This document shows positions 22,608 to 60,917 of a stretch of 64,000 nt of DNA, one piece after another. A model generated the notes under the pieces. That model saw only the letters and a list, made by a program, of their open reading frames with translations, was not told the origin of the DNA and did not search any database. The translations under genes and the position numbers were made by a program. Positions within the stretch are counted from its first letter, which is position 1. Each line of letters begins with the position of its first letter. The stretch is from NCBI GenBank assembly GCA_021781655.1, contig JAJXWJ010000006.1:1-64000 (forward strand), written 5' to 3'. The DNA is from Bacillota bacterium. Its GTDB lineage: Bacteria; Bacillota; Clostridia; Clostridiales; Clostridiaceae.

Positions 22608-24272
22608 GTGAAGGTATTGTTAGTTGGGATTAATGCTAAATTTGTACACAGCAATTTGGCAGTTAGATATTTAAAAGCTTATACAAATGATTTACCCTTT
22701 GATTGTAATATAAAAGAATTTTCTATAAATGATAGGATAGAAAAGGTATTCGAAAACATAATGGAAGAAAAGCTTGAAATTATTGGCTTTTCATGTTATA
22801 TATGGAATATCGAATATGTAATTAAGCTAGCCAGTTTAATTAAAACATTAGATAAGAAAATAGAAATATTTTATGGCGGACCAGAAGTATCATATGATAG
22901 CAGTAATTTCTTGCTAAGTAATCCAGGAGATTATGTAATTGAAGGGGAAGGGGAAGAGACCTTTAGAGATTTTATTATATGGAAACTTTCAGGAAGTGAA
23001 AAGACAGCTAATATTGAAGGATTACATGTGAAAAAAGGAGATAATGTATTTTTTGGTGGTAACAGAGAACTTATTCATATGGATTCTTTAATTTTCCCTT
23101 ATCATGAAAAAGATGATTTAAATAATAAAATAGTTTATTATGAAAGCAGTAGAGGATGTCCTTTTAGTTGCAAATATTGTTTATCTTCTACTATACACGG
23201 AGTTAGATTTTTAAATTTAGATAGAGTATTGAAAGAATTACAATTTTTTATGGATAAAAAGGTTAGACTTTTAAAATTTGTGGATAGAACCTTTAATTGC
23301 AATACACAATTTGCAAAGGCAATTTGGAGATTTTTAATAGATGCAAATACAGATACTACTTTTCATTTTGAGATATCTGCAGATTTATTAAAAGATGATG
23401 AACTTGAAATATTAAAAGCTGCACCTAAAGGTCGGTTCCAATTTGAAGTAGGAGTTCAAACTACTAATGATGATGTTTTAAATAATATAGATAGACATGT
23501 GAATTTTAGCAGTATAAAGGAAAAGGTACTAGAGCTCAATAAAATTAAAAATATAAAGCAGCATTTGGATTTGATAGCAGGACTTCCAGGCGAAAACTTT
23601 GAAGCTTTTAAAAAATCCTTTAACGATGTTTATAGTATTAAGCCAGATGAAATACAGCTTGGATTTTTAAAGCTATTAAAAGGTTCTTTGATGAGAGAAG
23701 AAGCTGAAAAATGGGGAATGGTTTATTCTCCGTATGCACCATATGAAATTTTTAAAACAAATGAAGTAACCTTCGATGAAATGATAAAATTAAAAAGGGT
23801 AGAGGAAGTAGTTGATAAATATTATAATTCTCAAAAATTCAATAATATTTTGAACTATTTTATTGATAAATATAAAACACCTTTTGATTTTTATTATTCT
23901 TTAGGTAAGTTTATGAAGGTTTCAGGATATTTTGATAGAAATATTTCATCTTCAGATTATTATAAAGTATTTTTAGAGTTTAATAACACAGAAGATGAAA
24001 TTTTAAAAGAGATAATAAAATTTGATTATTTAAAATTCAACAAAAAAAAGTGGCTTCCTCCATTTTTAAATAGAAAAATAAATAGGGAAAAGGAAAGAGA
24101 AATAATTAAAAAGCTTGGAAATAATAAAGATATTCATGTAGAAGTTTTTGATTTTGATATTTTAAAGTATTTTTCTGAAGGAATAATAGAAAAAGATGAA
24201 AAATATTTAATATTTGATGTTCAAAATGAAGAAAATATATACACTTACAAGGATCAGGTTGTGGCACAATAG
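22608..24272 (+). CDS. B12-binding radical SAM protein (DUF4080 type)
   Basis: 554 residues. An N-terminal cobalamin-binding Rossmann domain (about 1-140, beginning KVLLVGINAKFVHSN) is followed by a radical SAM barrel with the cluster motif CPFSCKYC (about residues 184-191), then a C-terminal extension (about 370-554) typical of clostridial DUF4080 proteins. It probably catalyses a methylation or rearrangement using B12 and S-adenosylmethionine; the substrate is unknown. It starts with GTG at 22608 after AAAGGAGA. The stop codon lies inside a perfect hairpin. Confidence 0.87.
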   Translation: MKVLLVGINAKFVHSNLAVRYLKAYTNDLPFDCNIKEFSINDRIEKVFENIMEEKLEIIGFSCYIWNIEYVIKLASLIKTLDKKIEIFYGGPEVSYDSSNFLLSNPGDYVIEGEGEETFRDFIIWKLSGSEKTANIEGLHVKKGDNVFFGGNRELIHMDSLIFPYHEKDDLNNKIVYYESSRGCPFSCKYCLSSTIHGVRFLNLDRVLKELQFFMDKKVRLLKFVDRTFNCNTQFAKAIWRFLIDANTDTTFHFEISADLLKDDELEILKAAPKGRFQFEVGVQTTNDDVLNNIDRHVNFSSIKEKVLELNKIKNIKQHLDLIAGLPGENFEAFKKSFNDVYSIKPDEIQLGFLKLLKGSLMREEAEKWGMVYSPYAPYEIFKTNEVTFDEMIKLKRVEEVVDKYYNSQKFNNILNYFIDKYKTPFDFYYSLGKFMKVSGYFDRNISSSDYYKVFLEFNNTEDEILKEIIKFDYLKFNKKKWLPPFLNRKINREKEREIIKKLGNNKDIHVEVFDFDILKYFSEGIIEKDEKYLIFDVQNEENIYTYKDQVVAQ

Positions 24273-24288
24273 TAATTGTGCCACAACC
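24257..24288. terminator. perfect 14-bp hairpin between convergent units
   Basis: Arms at 24257-24270 and 24275-24288 (each GGTTGTGGCACAAT or its complement) with a 4-base loop AGTA. It spans the stop codon of the radical SAM gene and abuts the end of the ech operon. No T run follows on either strand, so it may stabilise 3' ends rather than terminate by itself. Confidence 0.55.
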
Positions 24289-24290
24289 CC

Positions 24291-24617
24291 TTAGGAGTTT
24301 TTTGAAACTTTAAAAATTACTTTTTCTTTTGCAGGATAAATCCTTTCATTTGAAAGAATTATTGATTTTTTAGGGCAGGATGTTATACATTCAGAGCATA
24401 TAATACAGCGAAATGTGTTTAACTCGATAGTTTTATTGGTTCTATCTACTTTTATTGCATCTGCTGGACATTTTCTAGCACATAACCCGCAATAAATGCA
24501 GTTTTCGGAATTAAAAATTACATGGCCTCTACTTCTTTCAAAAGTAAGTCGGGTTTCAAAAGGATATTTTCTTGTTGCTGGTTTATGAAAAAGATTTTGC
24601 ATAATTAATTTAAACAT
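24291..24617 (-). CDS. echF: Ech hydrogenase subunit F, 2[4Fe-4S] ferredoxin-like
   Basis: 108 residues with two cluster motifs, CIYCGLCARKCP and CIICSECITSCP, like NuoI/HycF. It passes electrons between ferredoxin and the small subunit of the membrane-bound hydrogenase. It is the last gene of the minus-strand operon, 18 bp after echE. An AGGTG site precedes the ATG. Confidence 0.88.
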   Translation of the reverse strand: MFKLIMQNLFHKPATRKYPFETRLTFERSRGHVIFNSENCIYCGLCARKCPADAIKVDRTNKTIELNTFRCIICSECITSCPKKSIILSNERIYPAKEKVIFKVSKNS

Positions 24618-59934: not shown

Positions 59935-60099
59935 ATGGCAGATAAAACAATAGTATGTAAAGACTGCGGCAAAGATTTCATATTCACAGAAGGTGAGCAA
60001 GCTTTTTACAAAGAAAAAGGTTTTGAAAATGAACCAGTAAGATGTCCTGATTGCAGAAAAGCAAGAAAGGCTCAAAACAACAGAGGTTTCAAGAGATAA
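59935..60099 (+). CDS. zinc-ribbon miniprotein (zf-trcl type)
   Basis: 54 residues. CKDC (8-11) and CPDC (37-40) form a zinc ribbon; the C-terminus is basic (RKARKAQNNRGFKR), suiting nucleic-acid binding. It is similar to the small clostridial zinc-ribbon proteins. GGAGG (59921-59925) precedes the ATG at 59935. Its leader may control translation. It is a single gene with its own terminator. Confidence 0.82.
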   Translation: MADKTIVCKDCGKDFIFTEGEQAFYKEKGFENEPVRCPDCRKARKAQNNRGFKR

Positions 60100-60114: not shown

Positions 60115-60153
60115 TAGCTGCTGATAAATTTCAGCGGCTATTTTATATTTTTT
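60115..60153 (+). terminator. intrinsic terminator of the zinc-ribbon gene
   Basis: TAGCTGCTGA and TCAGCGGCTA (one G-U pair) form a 10-bp stem, followed by TTTTATATTTTTT. Confidence 0.8.
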
Positions 60154-60181
60154 GGTACCTGACCCCAAGGGGTCAGGTACC
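60154..60181. repeat. perfect GGTACCTGACCCC palindrome
   Basis: Two 13-base arms (60154-60166 and 60169-60181) flank AA. It is GC-rich against an AT-rich background. It overlaps the end of the deacetylase gene on the minus strand, and the TGA inside one arm is that gene's stop codon. Similar GGGGTCAGGT palindromes occur near IS200/REP-associated transposases in other bacteria; no transposase is here. Confidence 0.7.
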
Positions 60182-60886
60182 CTGCTTGTTTATCCGATAA
60201 AAGTATTCAGGGGTACTATCTGTAATTGGCAGTATATCATAACCTTTATCTCTATAAAATTTGACTATGCTTGGAATAGCCTTGGCAGTATTCAAATTGT
60301 TTGAATTACAATGCATTAAAAGGATTATGCTCTTTTCACAGCTTTTACATTTGGAGGCATTTTTAAATAATTGTTCTTCTGACAAACTTGGGTTTACTCC
60401 GTCCTCTAAGCTTACATTCCAATCATAAATTTTAAAATTATTTTCATGTAATAAATTTAGCATTCCTTCAGTAAGATGGCCAGAAGTGCCACCTGGAAAT
60501 CTTATTATATTGGTTGAAGCACCAGTAACTCTTTCAACTAATGCTTTGGTATTTAGCATCTCATCAATAAATGTAGAATTGTCTTTGTATATCTTTTTAA
60601 AGTTATGAGAGTATGTGTGTAATCCAATTGAATGGCCTTCGTCATAAATTCTTTTTAATGTGGGTTCCCTACCTATAATTTCTTTACCCACAACGAAAAA
60701 GGTTGCTTTTACATCACATTGTTTTAATGCAGTTAATATTTCATCTATAATTATGCTAGGACCGTCATCAAAAGTAAGATATAAAACTTTTTTGCTTTGT
60801 GGTACCATATCAGCATAACAATTTATATTGAAACTGCAAAATAAAATAAATATTAAAGAAATTAAGCCTATCTTTTTTATAAACAT
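60173..60886 (-). CDS. secreted polysaccharide deacetylase (NodB domain)
   Basis: 237 residues. Signal peptide (about 1-26, cut near CYAD), then a NodB domain with TFDDGPS (metal Asp), HTYSH (metal His pair), RFPGG, and LMH. It removes acetyl groups from peptidoglycan or a polysaccharide outside the cell. Start ATG at 60886 is eight bases after GGAAG; an ATG 9 bases earlier touches that site. Its last residues and stop come from the palindrome at 60154-60181, so the original C-terminus may be altered. Confidence 0.88.
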   Translation of the reverse strand: MFIKKIGLISLIFILFCSFNINCYADMVPQSKKVLYLTFDDGPSIIIDEILTALKQCDVKATFFVVGKEIIGREPTLKRIYDEGHSIGLHTYSHNFKKIYKDNSTFIDEMLNTKALVERVTGASTNIIRFPGGTSGHLTEGMLNLLHENNFKIYDWNVSLEDGVNPSLSEEQLFKNASKCKSCEKSIILLMHCNSNNLNTAKAIPSIVKFYRDKGYDILPITDSTPEYFYRINKQGT

Positions 60887-60917
60887 TTGAGTCATCTTCC
60901 TTTTTGTATTTTTGGAA

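Follow-up and report, generated by a model that had tools for sequence, protein, structure and literature searches.

How does a GC-rich palindrome come to lie across the end of a protein-coding gene and to provide its stop codon? The question arises at 60154-60181 of the window, the 64,000-nucleotide stretch of a Clostridiaceae draft genome analysed here, where the initial annotation had described a perfect palindrome with 13-base arms overlapping the end of a polysaccharide deacetylase gene and holding its TGA and last residues. The palindrome is there as described: it reads GGTACCTGACCCC-AA-GGGGTCAGGTACC, with arms of 13 nt that are 100% complementary and 2 nt apart (Table 1). On the minus strand, the deacetylase ORF ends AAC AAG CAG GGT ACC TGA; the TGA and the G-T codons (60176-60181) are inside the palindrome, and the Q codon (60182-60184) is immediately outside. 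Since the zf_Tbcl gene is on the plus strand and the deacetylase gene on the minus strand, the palindrome sits between convergent genes. The repeat unit that forms its arms is multi-copy, is missing at the matching place in relatives and supplies the present stop of the deacetylase gene.

Table 1. Features at the end of the deacetylase gene (positions in the window)
Feature	Position	Strand	Basis
Repeat unit 1, GGTACCTGACCCC	60154..60166	+	sequence
AA spacer separating both units	60167..60168	.	sequence
Repeat unit 2, GGTACCTGACCCC on the minus strand (GGGGTCAGGTACC on the plus strand)	60169..60181	-	sequence
TGA stop of the deacetylase gene, within unit 2	60173..60175	-	sequence, ORF
Added C-terminal codons CAG GGT ACC (Q-G-T)	60176..60184	-	comparison with four syntenic relatives; codon-by-codon alignment inferred
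Polysaccharide deacetylase gene, 240 aa, PF01522 (Polysacc_deac_1, E 1.3e-27)	60173..60895	-	ORF, profile match
Convergent neighbour, 54-aa zf_Tbcl protein (PF13451)	59935..60099	+	ORF, profile match
Terminator-like hairpin with T-rich tail, distinct from the repeat	60115..60140	+	terminator scan

In the window, whose GC content is 29.7%, only one other perfect inverted repeat has arms at least this long (loop of at most 6), at 24257-24288. It is longer than the deacetylase-end palindrome (arms of 14, loop of 4) and looks terminator-like; a 554-aa ORF on the plus strand (22608-24272) terminates in it, the stop falling in the loop, and a convergent minus-strand ORF ends beside it at 24291. An Rfam search of the whole window gave no match.

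The window's genome (G000; 3.71 Mb, draft, 168 contigs, 97.7% complete) contains 26 copies of GTRCCTGACCCC, 10 forward and 16 reverse, versus none for the reversed control pattern and an expectation of 0.04 from base composition; a two-mismatch match at C104:66741 was left out of the count, as the reversed control gives eight matches at such stringency. The search for further copies that the initial annotation had called for thus reveals a dispersed family, in which 26 units of 13 bp are grouped at 12 places in ones, twos, threes or fours, with unit-to-unit spacers of 2-3 A/T bases. Six places (C35, C36, C49, C61, C129 and the window) have the inverted pair seen in the window and two (C39 and C53) a pair facing the opposite way, outward; two direct units are present on C5 and three on C8, a single unit on C88 and four units on C115. 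A simple inverted pair is therefore absent at four of the 12 places. At nine places the hexamer G[GT]C[ACT]CC and three A/T bases stand before the first unit, and the last is followed by at least six A/T bases in a run. On C129 the hexamer is on the opposite side and the A/T run is missing; the window and C115 lack the hexamer and have an A/T run on one side, which makes the window copy a bare inverted pair.

Half of the places (C5, C8, C35, C49, C115 and the window) are clearly between convergent genes. The repeat lies between genes of one direction on C53 and C61, upstream of a gene on C36 and on C88, there near a contig end, and inside larC on C129; the setting on C39 is less clear. Five of the 12 (C8, C49, C53, C61 and C88) are within 1.6 kb of a contig end, perhaps because assemblies break near repeats. 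All or part of a stop codon is supplied at three of the 12 places, the outermost G of the repeat being the final base of a TAG stop on C35 and C115. The unit's own TGA ends an ORF of at least 100 aa in one of the 26 G000 units, the window copy; the corresponding counts elsewhere are 1 of 38 units examined (of 102) in Mesobacillus campisalis, 2 of 20 in Clostridium sp. Marseille-P3244 and 0 of 10 in a relative, G006. Donation of a whole TGA is, on these low counts, not the rule.

Relatives place the repeat at the deacetylase gene as a newcomer. A deacetylase search across 146 genomes of the family yielded 30 loci, the window and its 29 best relatives, and the unit occurs nowhere in those 29; they belong to other genera, with about 60% protein identity at best, so the empty sites are not base-exact. 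Four of them (L147-L150) keep the zf_Tbcl gene in the flank, and in these the codon of the matching last lysine stands directly before TAG, versus K-CAG-GGT-ACC-TGA in the window; the C-terminus there is three residues longer. A hairpin comes immediately after the TAG in L147 and L148, nine bases on in L150 and farther in L149. From the four TAG stops we infer an insertion of the repeat at the old stop, with a gain of Q-G-T; the MAFFT alignment puts the gap slightly differently from the codon-by-codon reading, so the junction is not exact. The initial annotation had proposed this comparison, allowing that a single-copy palindrome shared with relatives would be just a terminator. The palindrome is neither single-copy nor shared, and the idea of a small insertion gains from both the dispersed family and the 29 related loci without the unit. 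Its further suggestion, that the insertion reset the C-terminus, is right in that three residues were added and may overstate the case in that the insertion point was probably immediately behind the old TAG, now CAG.

The larC and C115 places also support insertion, though here too the empty sites are not base-exact. In larC (L065, 5444-6694, on C129) the repeat encodes, in frame, VPDPLGSGT within a His-rich linker that is highly variable among relatives, and neither the unit nor a sequence encoding this peptide occurs in any of 16 related larC loci, counted after LarC fragments L210-L212 had been dropped. The radical SAM protein on C115 ends in GIN, the G of its TAG coming from the repeat, while 13 of 16 relatives end in GV or GI; the unit is absent from all 16 related loci, paralogues L230 and L231 having been dropped before counting.

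An ordinary intrinsic terminator common to both convergent genes would account for a very stable hairpin in this position (region fold -37.2 kcal/mol, z -7.5). A terminator scan flags the palindrome on the plus strand, with the tail CTGCTTGTTT, and in the C5, C49 and C53 copies seven of the eight tail bases on one strand are T. On the deacetylase strand, however, the hairpin is followed by AAAAAATATA, with no T run on the transcribed strand, and a separate terminator-like hairpin stands at 60115-60140, with similar hairpins between the same two genes in relatives. Moreover, 11 further places carry the unit, some of them with direct or single copies, and these include larC and a site upstream of a gene. 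We therefore regard this explanation as quite unlikely. The palindrome is a poor terminator for the deacetylase gene, and the existence of further copies and the lack of a T tail on that strand speak against the terminator-only reading; since the scan flags the plus strand, where the T tail is weak and interrupted, a minor terminator role on that strand is possible.

If the repeat is mobile, what moves it? The initial annotation had pointed to IS200/REP-type transposases. G000 has three Y1 matches: an intact IS200-type gene on C150 (160 bits to transpos_IS200), a broken IS200-type gene on C90 (L054), its pieces split by stops, and a fragment on C32 that looks like a truncated IS200-like gene, its reading frame having led us to reject it as a decayed REP transposase. 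Nothing in G000 was matched by a profile built from seven RAYT-like proteins, run with no positive control, nor by REP_Tyr_transpos (NF047646), which has matches in 20 of the 30 genomes of the relative set, 4 of them above cut-off. A RAYT/TIRYT-like gene was thus not found in this draft assembly, and the REP half of the suggested link is not borne out in G000, whose Y1 matches are IS200-type or IS200-like.

It might be supposed that G000's own IS200 transposase moves the repeats in trans, given the intact gene on C150 and the remnants on C90 and C32. Yet the 13-bp unit is absent from the 13.9-, 8.5- and 8.6-kb stretches around the three Y1 genes, which makes this supposition a poor candidate in our estimation and led us to reject the ends of the genome's own IS200 elements as the source of the repeat. 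The 13.9-kb C150 contig holds one bare 7-mer of the unit.

Other genomes associate the unit with a different branch of Y1 enzymes. The exact inverted pair occurs in one of 391 genomes of a class sample, G000 itself, and half-sites (units) in six of the 30 genomes of the relative set, G000 included, with 10 in G006. Six units are spread over contig C51 of G006 (L175, L176) at distances of several kb, and a longer common sequence, TTTCYTTACAAGTGCCTGACCCC, encloses four of them. Across the 30 relatives no link is visible between the numbers of RAYT-like genes and of units, and the RAYT-like-rich G025, G027 and G028 have no unit. The GTGCC form of the pair appears in six stretches from five of the GTDB species genomes scanned: M. 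campisalis, Marseille-P3244 (two stretches), Bacillus sp. BHET2, an Omnitrophota MAG and an Acidimicrobiia MAG. The M. campisalis genome contains 102 units and a single Y1 gene; upstream of the latter, units begin at distances of 201 and 167 bp. In Marseille-P3244, 20 units form 13 clusters, three of which are no more than 6 kb from a single RAYT-like gene (binomial P 1.7e-4, with correction for two such genes; the gene was picked after inspection), and the stop of this adjoining Y1 gene is the unit's TGA, in the same frame as the TGA in the window. REP_Tyr_transpos is a better match than IS200 for both Y1 proteins, which score 65.9 and 69.7 with it, below the cut-off of 80. A unit was seen on one side only of any Y1 gene, never as inverted units on both sides. 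Of 14 RAYT-like loci scanned, with the gene parsed in 8 (L112 unparsed), GGGGWSAS was present within 400 bp only in M. campisalis. BHET2 has two units, none beside its Y1 genes, and the two MAGs gave no Y1 match; three stretches from viral contigs have a looser palindrome, with no Y1 match in the three records. The connection to a REP-type enzyme that the initial annotation had drawn thus finds support in other genomes with the unit beside RAYT-like Y1 genes and none in G000.

We posit, with moderate confidence, that the palindrome is a copy of a dispersed, non-autonomous REP/TIR-like repeat with the 13-bp unit GGTRCCTGACCCC, moved in trans by a Y1 enzyme. The repeat would have inserted between the convergent genes, just after the old deacetylase TAG; a later T-to-C change, on the simplest reading, would have turned that TAG into CAG, and translation would then continue to the in-frame TGA of the unit (GGT ACC TGA), adding Q-G-T. 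The plausible catalyst of its movement is a Y1 (HuH) transposase of RAYT/TIRYT-like type with single-stranded DNA as substrate; two further Bacillota genomes have the unit next to genes of this type, and the published GGGGWSAS motif points the same way. In G000 the enzyme may have been lost, left unassembled or gone unrecognised. The four places without a simple inverted pair are not predicted by a hairpin-based mechanism and count against this explanation.

A dispersed binding site for a protein, either a regulator or a chromosome-organising factor, could exist without any mobility, and would fit a long, nearly identical palindrome that occurs in several copies and whose unit is unchanged to the letter in distant Bacillota. 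Single and direct arrangements, a location mostly at gene ends, the copy read in frame in larC and the absence of the unit from the examined relatives of the same genes speak against it, and we consider it unlikely. More speculative, and in our judgement improbable, is a hairpin-independent Bacillota variant of TIR/REP elements that prefers the A/T-rich stop zone and carries its own in-frame stop, so that insertion would be nearly harmless and the old stop free to mutate; its units would multiply and turn round with no need of an inverted pair.

The deacetylase itself is probably little affected, with three residues added. The locus offers a clear case of a repeat turned gene stop codon; odd C-termini and VPDPLGSGT-like peptides would be explained as repeat-encoded, and the GGTRCCTGACCCC family in Bacillota (G000, Mesobacillus, Marseille-P3244) would be tied to a little-studied TIRYT branch of the Y1 transposases.

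How does this family compare with known repeats? In the open-licence papers searched, the unit was not found, and nothing turned up for RAYT, Firmicutes and REPIN together; GGGGTCAGG is present in a paper on the C. difficile rRNA spacer whose title is unrelated to the repeat. In published descriptions, RAYT-like enzymes with inverted repeats on either side, some of these sharing GGGGWSAS, go by the names TIRYTs and TIRtrons, and families of TIRs are dispersed (Di Nocera et al. 2013, PMC3733652); 20 of 26 TIRYT examples are assigned to TnpA-Y1 subclass 2.1 (Quentin et al. 2018, PMC6006769). Against these descriptions, GGGGTCAG fits GGGGWSAS in 26 of 26 G000 units (motif: PMC3733652, PMC6006769); like TIR repeats, the family is dispersed in single, dimeric or clustered copies, and RAYT-like Y1 genes adjoin the unit in two other genomes. 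Unlike a TIRtron as portrayed there, the present units are just 13 bp long and take any orientation, no TIRYT gene was found in G000, and no Y1 gene is flanked on both sides; because such a unit-flanked gene was looked for and not found, we do not claim TIRtron membership.

Rickettsial palindromic elements, to judge from PMC3733652, are similar in that a palindromic repeat lies in frame inside a protein gene, as in larC, and differ in carrying a CGTC tag, which the present unit lacks. The GTAG REPs and REPINs with their RAYTs (Nunvar et al. 2010, PMC2817692) are, like the present repeat, short palindromes at gene ends. According to PMC3733652, flanking ORFs often take their TAG stop from such a REP, and copies can also be intragenic, so that stop donation by REPs is already published, and both traits recur in the G000 family. 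In contrast to GTAG REPs, the flanks of the 12 G000 places share no GTAG or GTGG at the hairpin foot, and the genome has about a dozen places versus the high numbers usual for REPs; a cognate RAYT was also not found there (NF047646, no match). The repeat is closer to the GGGGWSAS-bearing repeats of TIRYT enzymes than to GTAG REPs, and we file it as REP/TIR-like.
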